This document shows, piece by piece, positions 9,759-41,803 of a stretch of DNA of 64,000 nt. Origin of the DNA: Salinicola peritrichatus. GTDB taxonomy: Bacteria > Pseudomonadota > Gammaproteobacteria > Pseudomonadales > Halomonadaceae. The stretch covers positions 134,501 to 198,500 of the forward strand of contig NZ_PZJU01000008.1 in assembly GCF_003206715.1 (NCBI RefSeq), read 5' to 3'. How positions within the stretch are numbered: position 1 is the stretch's first letter; each line of letters begins with the position of its first letter. A program made the translations under genes and the position numbers. Under the pieces are notes generated by a model that saw nothing but the letters and a program-made list of their open reading frames with translations, searched no databases and was not told where the DNA came from.

Positions 9759-9981
9759 GCCGCGCGCTCGACTGCAATTCCCGTTACCGGGAACGGCAAG
9801 ACTGGCATGCGATATGCATCTTTCGATGTCGAGCGAGTAGCGACGGCGATGCTGTGCGAGTATCCCGTCATCAAAAACACACACGCACCGGCACATGGTC
9901 CCGGGTGCCGTGACGGTTCTACCGCGCGGTCGGATCCATGGGGTGTGTGGAGGCCCAACCCGATTCTTCAGGAGTCACACC

Positions 9982-36612: not shown

Positions 36613-37439
36613 CGGCAAACGATGAGGTGAACATGACGGTCAGAACCCTGACCTGCCAGGTGGAAACGGTCGAAGATCTGACTCCCGATGTGTTCCGGGT
36701 GGTGCTCGAAGGGCGCGCCGAGGCGATTGCCCATGCGCCGGGCCAGTATCTCGAGCTGGCGGTCGACGACGACACCTGGGTGCCGTTTTCGATCGCCTGC
36801 GCCGAGAACGGCGAGGGCCGGCTGGAACTGCATATCCAGCACTGGCCCGAGCGCACTCATTCGGCACGCTTGCGAGAGCTGCTGATTCACCGCAACCGGC
36901 TATCGGTACGCCTGCCCCACGGGGATTGCATTCTGCCGGCGGATCGTCGGGAGCCGCTGCTGCTGATCGCCGCCGGGACCGGTTTTGCCCAGCTCAAGGC
37001 CATCGTCGAGGCGGCATTGGCGGAAAATCCCGAGCGGCGGGTGTCGATCTGGTGGGCGGTGCGCGAGCGCCGTGACCTGTATGCCGAATCGCTGGCGCGG
37101 GAGTGGGCGTTGGCGCATCCGAACGTGGACTTTCACGCCGTGGTGGAAACGCCCGAAGCCGAGTTCGAGTCCCGCCCGGGCATCGTCTGGCACCAGGGGC
37201 GTATCGATGAAGCGCTCGCTGCCGAGTTGGATGCCGTGGCTGGACTCGAGATCTATCTCGCCGGCTCGCCGGGGATGGTCTATGCCTGTGTCGATACGCT
37301 GGCGCCGATGGGGCTGACGGAGGCCCAGGTGCATTCGGACGTCTTCAGCTACGCGCCCAGGGTGCCGTTTCTGCCGCTTCCCGACAGCGATCCCGACCAG
37401 GCCCCGCTGACCCCGGGTGAGGAGCGTGAAAAGTCGTGA
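36609..37439 (+). CDS. fre: NAD(P)H-flavin reductase
   Basis: A 276-residue ferredoxin-reductase-fold enzyme that reduces free flavins, matching Escherichia coli Fre across its length and also placed next to ubiD there. FAD/flavin domain with PGQYLELAV and [21 protein letters not shown] domain with [17 protein letters not shown] and [15 protein letters not shown] 36609 overlaps the ubiD stop; ATG 36633 (MTVRTLTC), with gaggtg close upstream, is an equally good start and aligns better with Fre. The C-terminus has a roughly 25-residue polar extension ([11 protein letters not shown]). Confidence 0.92.
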
Positions 37440-38116
37440 GTCAATCGCCGATCCTGATCACCGGCGGCGCCCAGCGCCTGGGGCGCCACTGTGCCGAGCG
37501 CCTGCTCGACGACGGTCACCCGGTGATCGTCACTTACCGCCGCGAGCGCGAGGCCTTGACTGCGCTACGCGAGCGCGGCGCGATCACGCTGCCGGCCGAC
37601 TTTTCCAGCGTTGCGGGCATCGAGGCTTTCATCGCCCGGCTCGCGGAAACCACATCGAGTCTTCGCGCGATCGTGCATAACGCCAGCGAGTGGCTGGCGG
37701 ATCCCGAGCCTGCCGCAGCGGGCGAGGTCTTCGAGCGGCTGTTTCGCGTTCACATGCAGGCACCGTATCTGATCAATCTCCACGCACGCGAACTGCTGGA
37801 GGCGTGTCAGGAACCGCAGCGCGATATCGTTCACATTACCGATAGCGTGGTCAGGCGCGGGGCTGCGGGGCAGGCGGCCTATGCCGCGACCAAGGCCGGC
37901 CTGGAAAGCCTGACGCGTTCGTTTGCCGCACAGTTCGCACCGCGTATCCAGGTCAACGCGATTGCGCCGGGGCTGGTGATGCTGAACGACGACCGGGTGG
38001 TCGATCAGCGTGTTCCCGGCCCCGGGGTGATCTATCAGACGCTGCGCTATCTGCTCGACAACGACTACGTGACCGGTACCGTCCTGCCGGTGGATGGCGG
38101 CGAGCATCTGGGCTGA
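37436..38116 (+). CDS. folM: dihydromonapterin reductase, FolM-type short-chain dehydrogenase
   Basis: A 226-residue SDR protein aligning with FolM: cofactor motif ITGGAQRLGRHC, VTYRRERE (the arginine pattern for NADPH), HNASEWLADPE, catalytic Tyr/Lys in YAATKAGLESLTRSFA, and TGTVLPVDGGEHL. FolM reduces dihydromonapterin to the tetrahydro form, a cofactor of phenylalanine hydroxylase in some bacteria, and weakly reduces dihydrofolate. It starts with GTG overlapping the fre stop by 4 bp, so ubiD-fre-folM form one tightly coupled unit. Confidence 0.9.
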   Translation: MSQSPILITGGAQRLGRHCAERLLDDGHPVIVTYRREREALTALRERGAITLPADFSSVAGIEAFIARLAETTSSLRAIVHNASEWLADPEPAAAGEVFERLFRVHMQAPYLINLHARELLEACQEPQRDIVHITDSVVRRGAAGQAAYAATKAGLESLTRSFAAQFAPRIQVNAIAPGLVMLNDDRVVDQRVPGPGVIYQTLRYLLDNDYVTGTVLPVDGGEHLG

Positions 38117-38165
38117 GCCTCGGGTCGAATCTCGTAGGCGGGCGGCTCGCTATCGGCCTCGGGAC

Positions 38166-38193
38166 TTGTCAAATCCGGCCAAGACGTTAGGAT
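38166..38193 (+). promoter_or_regulatory. promoter of the DAHP synthase leader
   Basis: -35 TTGTCA (38166-38171), 16-bp spacer, -10 TAGGAT (38188-38193). Transcription would begin near 38200, 21 nt before the leader-peptide ATG. Confidence 0.65.
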
Positions 38194-38220
38194 GGTGGCA
38201 CTAAAACGCGAGAGCCCCTC

Positions 38221-38355
38221 ATGACCCACATCTGCGATTCACATCTGTCGATGGCTGCCGAGACCTTCGGTGGCTTCGTTGCGGTTGTGGAATTCGCTGA
38301 TGGCGGTTATGGCTATTGGTTTAGGACTGGCGTGCCCGCTGGTCGGTCGAGATGA
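38221..38355 (+). CDS. putative aromatic-rich leader peptide
   Basis: A 44-codon open frame starting ATG with agag 6 nt upstream. It contains Phe at 16, 19 and 25 and then the cluster Gly-Tyr-Gly-Tyr-Trp-Phe at 29-34 (tat ggc tat tgg ttt), just before mutually exclusive RNA stems and a terminator. All three aromatic amino acids that inhibit or derive from DAHP synthase are represented, as expected for ribosome-mediated attenuation. No match to a named leader peptide is claimed. Seven aromatic residues in 44, mostly grouped, is far from neutral composition. Confidence 0.7.
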   Translation: MTHICDSHLSMAAETFGGFVAVVEFADGGYGYWFRTGVPAGRSR

Positions 38356-38445
38356 CCTGAACCCGCGAGGCACGCCCGGACCAGGGCTGCCTCCCGCGTA
38401 TCGAGAACCCCCGGATGGCAGCCCACCCGGGGGTTCTCGCGTTTC
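38329..38445 (+). terminator. attenuator-like RNA structures and terminator before DAHP synthase
   Basis: Segment 1 ggcgtgcccgc (38329-38339) can pair with segment 2 (gcg-a-ggcacgcc, 38365-38376). Segment 2 (38367-38377) can instead pair with segment 3 gggctgcctc (38384-38393). Segment 3 gggctgcc (38384-38391) can pair with ggcagccc (38417-38424). The last stem, cgagaacccccgg (38402-38414) / ccgggggttctcg (38427-38439), is a perfect 13-bp terminator stem followed by cgttt. The U-tract is short. Which alternatives are used in vivo is not settled by sequence. Confidence 0.7.
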
Positions 38446-38473
38446 AGGCCGCAACCCTGGAATGAGATCAAAC

Positions 38474-39547
38474 ATGAACGCTGTGACACCTGCCTTATCC
38501 CCCGCGCCGACCGTGAACCGCATTGCGGCAGGAAGGACGCGAACCCTGCCGCTGCCGACTGCCGCCGAACTGCGTGGCCAACTGCCCCTGTCGAGTACCC
38601 TGACGGCACGGATCGAGACCCACCGGCACGCCATTCGCGCGATTCTCGATGGCGAGGACGACCGTCTGCTGGTGGTGACCGGTCCCTGCTCGATTCACGA
38701 TCCGAAAGCGGCACTGGAATATGCCGAGCGGCTGGCGGCACTGAACGAGCGTCTCGGCGACCGCCTGTTGCTGGTGATGCGGGTCTATGTCGAGAAACCG
38801 CGCACCACCGTTGGCTGGAAGGGACTGGCCTACGATCCGCATCTCGACGGTAGCGACGACATGGCGGCCGGGCTGGCGACAGCGAGACGCTTGATGCGCG
38901 ATATCGCCGAGCTGGGGCTGCCGATCGCCACCGAGCTGCTGCAACCGATGGCGGCGGCTTACTTCGACGACCTGCTCAGTTGGGTCGCGATCGGTGCGCG
39001 GACCACCGAATCCCAGATCCATCGTGAGCTGGCCAGCGGCCTGGCGGCAACCGTTGGCTTCAAGAACGGCACCCAGGGCAACGTCGACGTAGCGATCGCC
39101 GCGATACAGGCCGCCGCCCACCCGCATCGTCACTTCGGCGTCAGCGTCGACGGCACGCCGGCGCTGATCGAGACTCAGGGCAATCCATCCACCCATCTGG
39201 TCCTGCGCGGCGGCCATGCCGGTCCCAATCATGGCCCGGAGAGCGTCGCCGCCAGTCGCCGGGCGCTGGAACAGGCCGGCCTCAGGGCACGCCTGATGGT
39301 GGACTGTAGCCACGCCAATTCGCGCAAGGACCATCGTCGCCAGACCGAAGTGCTGCACGACGTCATCGACCAGCGCCTGGCCGGGGACGATAGCCTGATC
39401 GGGGTGATGCTGGAGAGCCATCTGTTCGAAGGCAAGCAACCGCTCAATCCGGCGGCATTGCGTTACGGGGTCTCGATCACCGACGCCTGTCTAGGCTGGG
39501 AGACCACCGAACAGTTGCTGGAACGTGCCGCCGAGCGGCTGCGCTAG
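38474..39547 (+). CDS. 3-deoxy-7-phosphoheptulonate (DAHP) synthase, AroF/G/H type
   Basis: A 357-residue class I-alpha DAHP synthase, the first enzyme of the shikimate pathway. Visible: VTGPCSIHDPKAAL, VMRVYVEKPRTTVGWKGL, VAIGARTTESQIHRELASG, GFKNGTQGN, THLVLRGG and MVDCSHANSRKDH (metal and phosphoenolpyruvate ligands). Tyr, Phe or Trp sensitivity cannot be assigned safely, so no paralogue letter is given. ATG 38474 (MNAVTP) is chosen; ATG 38462 is possible. The attenuator-like leader implies control by aromatic amino acid supply. Confidence 0.96.
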   Translation: MNAVTPALSPAPTVNRIAAGRTRTLPLPTAAELRGQLPLSSTLTARIETHRHAIRAILDGEDDRLLVVTGPCSIHDPKAALEYAERLAALNERLGDRLLLVMRVYVEKPRTTVGWKGLAYDPHLDGSDDMAAGLATARRLMRDIAELGLPIATELLQPMAAAYFDDLLSWVAIGARTTESQIHRELASGLAATVGFKNGTQGNVDVAIAAIQAAAHPHRHFGVSVDGTPALIETQGNPSTHLVLRGGHAGPNHGPESVAASRRALEQAGLRARLMVDCSHANSRKDHRRQTEVLHDVIDQRLAGDDSLIGVMLESHLFEGKQPLNPAALRYGVSITDACLGWETTEQLLERAAERLR

Positions 39548-39592
39548 GGAATGAGTCCTCATGGACATCATTTCGTCATCTTCCCAACCTAG

Positions 39593-39623
39593 CCTCGTCA
39601 CGCAGATCATCACCGTGACGAGG
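39593..39623 (+). promoter_or_regulatory. hairpin sequestering the phoX ribosome-binding site
   Basis: cctcgtcac (39593-39601) pairs perfectly with gtgacgagg (39615-39623) around a 13-nt loop. The right arm contains the gagg ribosome site of the phosphatase gene, 8 nt before its ATG, so folding would hide the site. It could also be an operator in DNA form. Confidence 0.6.
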
Positions 39624-39631
39624 CAAAAATC

Positions 39632-41803
39632 ATGAGTAAAGAAATCGAAGATCATCGCATCCACAATCAAAGTGGTAACGAGCCGTTCTCCGTGATCCTG
39701 GATCGCCGTGTCTCGCGGCGCGGCATCATGCAGGGAGGGCTCGGCGTCACGGCCATGACGGTATTGGGCGGGTTCGGTCTGGCGGGCTGCAGTGACGATG
39801 ACGAGGCCCATGCCGACGACCAGCCGGAGAAGACGCCGCTGGCGCTGGCGTTCGAATCGATCAAGGGGTCGAAGACCGACGCTATCGTCGTTCCCGCCGG
39901 TTATACCGCGCAGGTCTTGATTCCCTGGGGGACGCCGCTGACCAGCGAGGCTCAGGACTGGCATTCCGATCTTGTCATGACCTCGGAGAATCAGGCCAAT
40001 GCGGTTGGCATGCACCACGACGGCATGCACAACTTTCCGTTGGATGAAGACAACGCTTCGTCCGATTTCCTGCTGGCGTTGAATAACGAATATATCGACG
40101 AAAATGCTTTGTGGGCGCCGAATGGCGGGCCGACCAACATGAGCGAAGGCGCACGTCCCGCGGAGGAGGCGCGCACCGAGATCAATGCCCACGGCGTCAC
40201 CATCGTGCGAGTCAGGAAGCAAGATGACGGCAGCTGGGCGCATGTGCCGAACGACACATACAACCGCCGCTTCACCAGCGCCACGCCTATGGAGCTGGCC
40301 GGCCCGGTGGCGGGTAGCGACTATGTCGTTACCAAGTACTCGAAGGACGGTACGAGGACACGCGGTACCAACAACAACTGTGCCAACGGGTACACTCCCT
40401 GGGGCACCTATCTGACCTGTGAAGAGAACTGGCCCGAAGTGTTCGTCCACACCGGCGAGCGCTTCAGTGACGATGCTCGCCTGGGCATCCCCAGCGAGCG
40501 TGGCCGCTACGGCTGGGAAACTGCCGCCGATGGCACGGAAGCAACCGACGACCTGGCCCGTTTCGACATCACGCCGCGTGGCGGCAGCGCCGCGGAGGAT
40601 TATCGTAACGAGGCGCGCACCTTCGGTTATATCGTCGAGATCGATCCCTACGATCCCGCCCGTAGCGCCATCAAGCGCACCCATCTGGGCCGTTTCCGCC
40701 ACGAAGGTTGCTGGCCCGGCAAGCTGGTGGAAGGTGAGCCGATGGTGTTCTACTCCGGCCACGATTCCCGCAACGAATACATCTACAAGTTCGTCTCCGA
40801 AGCGGTGTGGGACCCGGCTGACGCCAACCGCCCGGGCGACAACTATGATCGCCTCGCCATCGGCGCCAAGTATATGGACGAGGGCTCGCTGTACGTGGCC
40901 AAGTTCAACGACGACGGCACCGGTGAATGGTTGCCGCTGACCCCGTATGCCACGATCAAGGATGGCCGCACGCTGGCCGAGGCGCTGGGCCTGGCCGCCG
41001 ATGATCTGGCAGGCGTTATCATCCACACCTGCGACGCCGCCGACCTGATGGGCGCGACGCCGATGGACCGTCCGGAGTGGGGTACGGTGGATCCGAATAC
41101 CGGCGAGGTCTACATGACCTTGACCAACAACACTAATCGTACCGAGGAAGGCAGCGCGGCCACCTACACCAATGATGGCAGTGATGTTGACGACCTGGGC
41201 GTGGGCTATGCCACGGCGCCGGTCAATGGTCCCAACCCGCGTGCCGATAACGAAGGCGGCCAGGTCATCCGCTGGCTCGAACCTTCGCCGAAGGAGACCA
41301 CCTTCGAGTGGGAGATCTTCGTCTGCGGGGGGGCGGCGAGCGATCCTAATGACATCAACCTTTCCGGTTTGACCGATGATAACCAGTTCGCCAGTCCGGA
41401 TGGCCTGTGGTACGACGAGCGCGGCGACGGCAACGGCATTCTGTGGATCGAGACCGACAATGGCTACGAGAACGTCACTGAAGACACCAACGACCAGTTG
41501 TTGGCAGTGGTGCCCCAGGGCGTCAGCCAAGCAAGCGGCGACGCAGCGGTGATCGGTAGCGGCAACCAGGCTCAGCTGAAGCGCTTTGCCGTGGGGCCCA
41601 ATGGCTGTGAGGTGACCGGTATCTTCGCTACGCCGGACAAGACCGCTCTGTTCATCAATATCCAGCATCCGGGTAACTGGCCGGCGGATGGCGATGCGCT
41701 GACCCAGGACGCAACGGTTGCGATCGGGGAGGGAGAAACGGTTCGTCCGCGGGCATCGACTGTCGTTATCTGGAAAGATGACGGTGGCCAGATCGGGCTC
41801 TAA
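39632..41803 (+). CDS. phoX: PhoX-family (DUF839) alkaline phosphatase, Tat-exported
   Basis: A 723-residue PhoX/DUF839 protein, a class of calcium- and iron-dependent phosphatases releasing phosphate from phosphomonoesters outside the cytoplasm. The N-terminus has a twin-arginine signal (VSRRGIMQGG, then a hydrophobic stretch) ending in LAGC, a possible lipobox, so the protein may be a Tat-exported lipoprotein. Family blocks: NNCANGYTPWGTYLTCEENW, ERGRYGW, GRFRHEGCWPGKL, and VTGIFATPDKTALFINIQHPG. tatABC lie 4 kb away. Actual substrate is inferred from family. Confidence 0.93.
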   Translation: MSKEIEDHRIHNQSGNEPFSVILDRRVSRRGIMQGGLGVTAMTVLGGFGLAGCSDDDEAHADDQPEKTPLALAFESIKGSKTDAIVVPAGYTAQVLIPWGTPLTSEAQDWHSDLVMTSENQANAVGMHHDGMHNFPLDEDNASSDFLLALNNEYIDENALWAPNGGPTNMSEGARPAEEARTEINAHGVTIVRVRKQDDGSWAHVPNDTYNRRFTSATPMELAGPVAGSDYVVTKYSKDGTRTRGTNNNCANGYTPWGTYLTCEENWPEVFVHTGERFSDDARLGIPSERGRYGWETAADGTEATDDLARFDITPRGGSAAEDYRNEARTFGYIVEIDPYDPARSAIKRTHLGRFRHEGCWPGKLVEGEPMVFYSGHDSRNEYIYKFVSEAVWDPADANRPGDNYDRLAIGAKYMDEGSLYVAKFNDDGTGEWLPLTPYATIKDGRTLAEALGLAADDLAGVIIHTCDAADLMGATPMDRPEWGTVDPNTGEVYMTLTNNTNRTEEGSAATYTNDGSDVDDLGVGYATAPVNGPNPRADNEGGQVIRWLEPSPKETTFEWEIFVCGGAASDPNDINLSGLTDDNQFASPDGLWYDERGDGNGILWIETDNGYENVTEDTNDQLLAVVPQGVSQASGDAAVIGSGNQAQLKRFAVGPNGCEVTGIFATPDKTALFINIQHPGNWPADGDALTQDATVAIGEGETVRPRASTVVIWKDDGGQIGL

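Follow-up and report, generated by a model that had tools for sequence, protein, structure and literature searches.

Leader region upstream of the DAHP synthase gene

The window (the whole stretch of 64,000 nucleotides that was analysed) contains a gene for 3-deoxy-7-phosphoheptulonate (DAHP) synthase; this enzyme controls the flux into the entire aromatic pathway. The protein scores over the cut-off of the NCBIfam models NF009395 (514.9 bits) and TIGR00034 (455.3 bits); in the same profile comparison it fails the AroG and AroH models. The gene for dihydromonapterin reductase ends at 38116, upstream of a promoter. The promoter is followed by a leader open reading frame (ORF), a hairpin-rich stretch which runs to 38448 and the DAHP synthase gene. 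The features are as follows.

38166..38193, + strand: sigma-70-type promoter TTGTCA-16-TAGGAT; the same site type is found in 17/18 Salinicola genomes
38221..38355, + strand: leader peptide ORF, 44 aa, MTHICDSHLSMAAETFGGFVAVVEFADGGYGYWFRTGVPAGRSR; start codon and frame are kept in 18/18 Salinicola genomes
38308..38322, + strand: control codons TAT GGC TAT TGG TTT (Tyr-Gly-Tyr-Trp-Phe)
38329..38336, + strand: segment A, GGCGTGCC, inside the leader ORF; pairs with B
38367..38377, + strand: segment B; alternative partners are A (through 38369-38376) and C
38384..38393, + strand: segment C; pairs with B, or with D through 38384-38391
38402..38439, + strand: terminator hairpin T, with a 13-bp stem (38402-38414/38427-38439)
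38417..38424, + strand: segment D, GGCAGCCC, located in the loop of T; proposed to form the antiterminator with C (C:D)
38440..38448, + strand: poor U-tract CGTTTCAGG, directly after the terminator stem
38474..39547, + strand: DAHP synthase, type I (aroFGH), 357 aa; NF009395, TIGR00034

The promoter is the sole 9-of-12 site in 37000-40000 (shuffled sequences contain a mean of 0.3). In the 17 Salinicola genomes that have it, including that of the window, it is unique on the gene strand across the 710 bases read; L017 has no promoter of this type in the same span. The leader has 44 codons, seven of them aromatic, with a cluster at codons 30-34. Only 3 of the 116,103 stop-free five-codon stretches in the window combine Y, W and F with four or more aromatic residues, and Tyr-Gly-Tyr-Trp-Phe is among them. 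In the 17 other Salinicola genomes read, the ATG, the frame and the aromatic cluster are kept; the first 25 or so codons are variable.

An ORF of 425 aa (38270-39547) is open from inside the leader through the DAHP synthase, as would be expected if the leader region coded for an N-terminal extension of the enzyme in this other frame. The open length is not kept in congeners, where it ranges from 359 to 451 aa, whereas the leader frame is; the probability of such an extension is negligible.

Downstream of the control codons, segments A to D can form three stems: A:B (38329-38336/38369-38376; 8 bp, or 11 with an inner extension), B:C (38367-38377/38384-38393; 10 bp) and C:D (38384-38391/38417-38424; 8 bp). 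Since D is the loop of T, A:B is compatible with C:D, which would block the terminator hairpin, while B:C is compatible with T itself. The predicted folding of 38199-38480 beats all 200 shuffles (z -5.9). The promoter, the leader with its aromatic cluster and the alternative A:B and B:C stems had all been described in an earlier reading of the sequence (the original prediction), and each is confirmed. The terminator described there fares less evenly: the 13-bp stem is present, but the tail after it is T-poor, and no terminator is called by a scan which requires 5 T in 8. Both the window and the rest of Salinicola have a poor U-tract, and many other genera have longer T-runs; the hairpin is strong and conserved across the aligned leaders described below.

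The stretch 38201-38218, just before the leader start codon, is complementary (16/18) to the 3' arm of the terminator at 38430-38447. Pairing of the two after readthrough could shut off leader translation. When the whole leader is folded at equilibrium, its 5' end pairs with the terminator 3' arm and masks the switch; stepwise folding is needed instead.

Occurrence of the leader in relatives

Sixty-two upstream regions of Halomonadaceae DAHP synthases were read, 22 from a first search and 40 hand-picked from a 121-genome search to cover genera. These are sites with a DAHP synthase match of at least 54% identity; below that, L029 (50%) alone was examined in the family. In 61/62 regions a leader with its aromatic cluster can be clearly recognised, the exception being L100. 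The motif TAYTGGTTYAG is absent at eight loci with DAHP synthases 50-54% identical (L023-L030), of which seven are from other families and L029 is from Halomonadaceae.

A scan of named genomes with the pattern TATTGGTTTAGN{4,5}GGCRYGCC gives at least 119 stretches. Among the 80 matches listed, 75 are followed on their own strand by a DAHP synthase at a distance of up to 900 nt; for the other five, the available sequence ends no more than 600 nt away. The genera represented include Pseudomonas, Stutzerimonas, Salinicola, Halomonas, Chromohalobacter and Kushneria. The pattern TGGTTYAGN{2,6}GGCRYGCC is found in 85/201 Halomonadaceae genomes; it is too narrow, and as some blanks carry the leader this count is no measure of absence. 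One DAHP synthase ortholog (G022:C18:70215-71278) appears as two overlapping matches, as if frameshifted.

Relationship to Pseudomonas sRNA P15

At the Rfam gathering score there is no match at the leader locus; elsewhere in the window, at 9860-9959, a t44 RNA (RF00127) is found with 72.5 bits. In a permissive search, the family RF00627 ("Pseudomonas sRNA P15") spans the element over the whole model (1-119). The match to window positions 38298-38433 has 30.4 bits (E 1.5e-4) and that to L081 has 49.8 bits (E 6e-8); both fall short of the gathering score (70). When 293 genomes of the order are scanned with the model, 27 give a match, 14 of them over 70 bits. Every one of the 27 has a DAHP synthase downstream on the same strand (20/20 outside Halomonadaceae and 7/7 within). 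The 20 outside the family comprise 11 in f21, which includes Pseudomonas (L101, Pseudomonas sp. GM50; L107, P. nicosulfuronedens), and nine in f43. The downstream enzymes of these 20 are 59-68% identical to that of the window, and their leaders end in, for example, SFYFGYWFSHWRA.

The model has matches in 0/14 well-known control genomes. A class-level scan gives seven matches in 369 genomes, three of which had been matched earlier. Two are new (L247 and L248); both have a YWF leader, a hairpin and a DAHP synthase, and both belong to the same class as the window but to a different order, so the element extends past the order of the window. L249 and L250 are regarded as false matches (E 3e-4 and 9.5e-4), with no DAHP synthase in the stretch examined.

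P15 shares with the window element its leader end, alignable helices and downstream gene; it differs in being filed as a small RNA, and the window lies under the gathering score of 70. From the alignment and the gene order we argue that the two are homologous, although the window element scores below Rfam membership. The orphan "sRNA P15" itself appears, from sequence comparison, to be the terminated leader of a DAHP synthase attenuator.

The Rfam entry implies another reading, in which P15 is a free-standing small RNA acting in trans and the DAHP synthase is a chance neighbour. P15 was detected by Livny et al., according to the accessible part of PMC2375449. A terminated leader would look like a small RNA, so this detection fits an attenuator too; the same-strand DAHP synthase downstream of all 27 matches and the ORF with aromatic codons inside the conserved part both argue against a chance neighbour, and a purely trans-acting RNA is very unlikely. 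The terminated RNA or the leader peptide may nevertheless have a role in trans beside attenuation; the portion of PMC7298713 available describes a leader peptide that can act in this way.

Conservation of the leader peptide and helices

To assess the helices, 71 leader cores were aligned by sequence alone (51 from Halomonadaceae and the 20 P15 matches from outside the family), giving 69 unique rows. Nine of the 18 Salinicola genomes were left out as near relatives of those kept. Two further leaders were dropped: L075, whose leader reads Phe-Trp-Tyr-Gly-Tyr-Phe and does not have the Trp-Phe anchor, and L100, whose DAHP synthase is only 54% identical and whose leader is not clear.

Y, W and F all fall inside the last six control-region codons in 71/71 leaders. 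Leader length is 35-54 aa, and a Shine-Dalgarno-like motif of 3-5 letters precedes the chosen start in 70/71; both values reflect a start that was picked partly by that motif. The leader end Trp-Phe, which serves as the alignment anchor, mostly has Tyr before it and a codon starting with AG after it. Such a fixed end might indicate an arrest peptide of the TnaC or SecM kind, in which the nascent chain stalls the ribosome and the same helices serve as the read-out. However, what comes after Phe is variable (R, S, T, I, D, M or G) and conservation does not extend to the N-terminal part of the leader, in contrast to known arrest peptides. Arrest by the peptide is quite unlikely.

All four helices are well paired across the 69 unique rows. 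For A:B, 93.5% of cells are paired and 5/8 pairs show double changes; the corresponding values are 87.6% and 6/10 for B:C, 90.4% and 4/8 for C:D, and 96.1% and 7/10 for T. When the partners are slid by one or two columns, 24-75% of cells are paired; this control is biased towards the structure, since the structure was read from the window. None of 300 shuffles matches the observed pairing percentages or double-change cell numbers of any of the four helices. The A:B pair-type count is matched by 8/300 shuffles, and the number of double-change pairs by two for A:B and four for C:D. In the Halomonadaceae rows alone, A:B pair types and double-change pairs are matched by 46 and 29 of 300 shuffles.

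The 18 unique rows from P15 matches, taken alone, give a mixed result. C:D and T are paired better than in shuffles; A:B (83.9%) and B:C (75.3%) are no better than shuffles, with one and zero double-change cells respectively. In a separate pair count over 43 of the 71 rows, the set A:B plus C:D is paired in 89.8% of cells with double changes at 8/16 pairs, and the set B:C plus T in 89.0% with double changes at 11/20; below, these are termed the ON and OFF sets.

Between the helices, sequence and length are variable. This bears on a suggestion in the available text of PMC2527527 that P15 is a possible riboswitch, which was based on synteny with the TPP riboswitch of Listeria. Against a riboswitch for an aromatic metabolite, the regions between the helices vary as described, conservation is highest in a block that reads as Tyr, Trp and Phe codons in frame, and the Rfam matches listed include no riboswitch family. 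We consider this explanation highly improbable.

At the level of sequence, the comparison demonstrates a leader ORF, aromatic control codons, four conserved helices in two incompatible sets, a terminator hairpin and linkage to DAHP synthase. Attenuators are recognised by mutually exclusive helices, one of which prevents the terminator, and by a codon cluster for the end products of the regulated pathway; the aligned leaders have both such a cluster and mutually exclusive helices with double changes, of which C:D would block T. The original prediction of a combined Tyr/Trp/Phe attenuator on a single DAHP synthase is supported in relatives: the leader frame is kept in 18/18 Salinicola genomes, and the leader cluster and helices are conserved, the latter with double changes. 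The comparison therefore does not refute the prediction, which was to fall if neither frame nor stems were kept in relatives.

Proposed attenuation mechanism

We consider it probable that the leader is a ribosome-mediated transcription attenuator which makes synthesis of a single DAHP synthase depend on how far tRNA-Tyr, tRNA-Trp and tRNA-Phe are charged, and that its wiring is inverted relative to the trp operon. When one of the aromatic tRNAs is uncharged, the ribosome would stall at codons 30-34, its front edge reaching roughly to where A begins. A would then pair with B once B is transcribed, leaving C free; C would pair with D in the terminator loop, and the polymerase would pass (ON). 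When all three tRNAs are charged, the ribosome would reach the stop codon and keep A and B apart. B would then pair with C, D would be left to the terminator hairpin, and transcription would stop (OFF).

The geometry of the leaders is consistent with this scheme. In 71/71 leaders the in-frame stop codon lies downstream of the first base of A and upstream of the first base of B; B starts 9-18 nt after the first base of this codon in 63/71 and 21-45 nt after it in 8/71. A ribosome at the stop codon would either cover A or sit in the gap before B, and B would lie beyond, or almost beyond, the ribosome edge. The usual ribosome footprint extends about 9-10 nt past the A-site codon. The last Phe codon ends 6 nt (41/71) or 7 nt (30/71) before A; because of this gap and the usual footprint, stalls at Tyr or Trp should leave A free or nearly free, and a stall at the last Phe codon should cover its first 2-4 bases.

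In known attenuators the control codon cluster directly precedes segment 1, and in the trp operon the stalled ribosome masks that segment. The codon cluster of the window also directly precedes A, and the original prediction had stated that a stalled ribosome would mask segment 1. The spacing does not support this statement, as A would be mostly exposed at Tyr and Trp stalls if the footprint is as generally known. Furthermore, masking A would give B:C and then the terminator, so that starvation would shut the gene off. Classical wiring of the trp type is therefore unlikely. The prediction had itself pointed to a problem of sign. Hiding A is indeed predicted to give B:C followed by the terminator; the problem itself probably dissolves with inverted wiring, because it would be the unstalled ribosome at the stop codon, and not the stalled one, that blocks A:B.

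Stepwise folding of the window leader agrees with the inverted scheme in most respects. With A exposed, A:B has a probability of 0.84-1.0, and C:D is at 1.0 at 3' ends 38424 and 38430; C:D then drops to 0.31 at 38434 and is at 0 by 38439, T prevailing at equilibrium. When A is hidden, B:C stands at 0.99-1.0 before D is made; as D appears, B:C is at 0.49 versus 0.47 for C:D, and B:C returns to 0.85-1.0 as T forms. The intermediate point is sensitive to position: with the 3' end two bases longer, D having just been made, B:C is at 0.05 versus 0.95 for C:D.

Across species, the probability of B:C after transcription of C is higher by 0.3 or more with A hidden in 66/71, compared with 18/71 when A is shuffled (one shuffle each); the remaining 5/71 do not switch. 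At equilibrium, when A is hidden and D has just been transcribed, B:C is more probable than C:D in 38/71 but not in 33/71, the window being among the latter. In the window folding, T once complete is the equilibrium structure whether A is exposed or hidden. Because of this, ON must be a kinetic state. With no ribosome on the leader at all, the attenuator model predicts ON.

Comparison with known attenuators

Ribosome-mediated attenuation is a textbook mechanism, and single leaders that sense several amino acids of a branched pathway are known from the ilvGMEDA and thr attenuators. These belong to another pathway and have other wiring. The E. coli trp and pheA attenuators respond to one amino acid each and have four segments, segment 1 being masked by the stalled ribosome; the window element has A, B, C, D and T in opposite parity. 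What they would share with it is a ribosome-mediated choice between terminator and antiterminator, as described for them in the accessible part of PMC11802643.

A close parallel is aroR of Corynebacterium glutamicum, a Phe-Tyr-Phe leader before the aroF operon at which stalling raises expression (Neshat et al. 2014, cited in the available portion of PMC11802643). Both have a leader peptide with aromatic codons before a DAHP synthase. C. glutamicum is an actinobacterium, however, and as described in that portion its leader responds to Phe limitation and not to Tyr, with no Trp named; the two are likened in mode of action only, not by homology of sequence or structure. In Shewanella, a table in PMC2659441 lists a predicted "Attenuator sensing tyr-tRNA" for aroF with a 1980 reference (Camakaris et al.). 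This is a prediction likened to the window by description only, and the description, as far as the source is accessible, includes no Tyr-Trp-Phe leader.

The main text of PMC2965389 has no mention of DAHP, heptulosonate or aromatic; the accessible part of PMC1262725 reports no conserved Phe or Tyr elements in Actinobacteria, and that of PMC4263517, on PA1750, mentions no leader. Searches of the open literature, subscription papers being mostly outside their scope, gave no description of this attenuator or of a DAHP synthase role for P15.

If the proposed mechanism is correct, Pseudomonas and halophiles such as Halomonas elongata sense three end products by one RNA switch, and an orphan Pseudomonas "small RNA" gains a function. 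The leader would also be a counter-example to the view that stalling must act by masking segment 1. It would be relevant to the engineering of aromatic production in these hosts.

Second aromatic leader

Many relatives have a second aromatic leader (Tyr..Trp-Arg-Phe-Ser, core TGGCGATTTAGC) between the terminator and the DAHP synthase gene; L019, L020, L070 and L091 are examples. The core TGGCGAT(T/A)TA is found in 38/62 Halomonadaceae regions (L100 included), which is 38/44 outside Salinicola, and the second-leader core is also found in 13 of the 20 P15 matches outside the family. It is absent in 18/18 Salinicola genomes as well as in L022, L067, L068, L095, L098 and L099; TGGCGATTTAG has no copy in the available sequence of the window's genome. 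Sequence comparison suggests that the second leader was lost or never gained in Salinicola, where the first leader alone is kept. Neither leader core motif occurs in the upstream regions of 12 paralogous DAHP synthases. In 4/12 of these regions a YWF run without the core lies about 470-560 nt upstream, alike between genomes.

In Halomonadaceae, two helices whose strands interleave lie downstream of the second leader; those of L070 have 8 and 6 bp, and the loops there are 8, 1 and 9 nt long. Across 37 rows the two helices are paired in 94.6% and 96.4% of cells, with double changes at 6/8 and 2/6 pairs. No shuffle out of 300 matches the first helix on any measure; for the second, 1 to 20 do. The predicted helices have the geometry of an H-type pseudoknot or of two exclusive stems. 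On reading of the sequence, no hairpin with a T-run is seen after the second leader. Our guess is that it provides a second attenuation step, perhaps Rho-dependent or translational; if so, one enzyme has two serial aromatic sensors in many relatives.

The three-aromatic sensor, the inverted wiring, the identity of P15 and the second leader of relatives appear to be new in the open literature. The balance of evidence leans towards a large unrecognised family of three-aromatic attenuators in Halomonadaceae, Pseudomonas, Stutzerimonas and others, "sRNA P15" included, with inverted wiring and often in tandem with the second aromatic leader. L100, from genus g35, has a Trp-Arg-Phe-Ser core before its 54% identical DAHP synthase, together with an upstream frame ending NYWYFTD.
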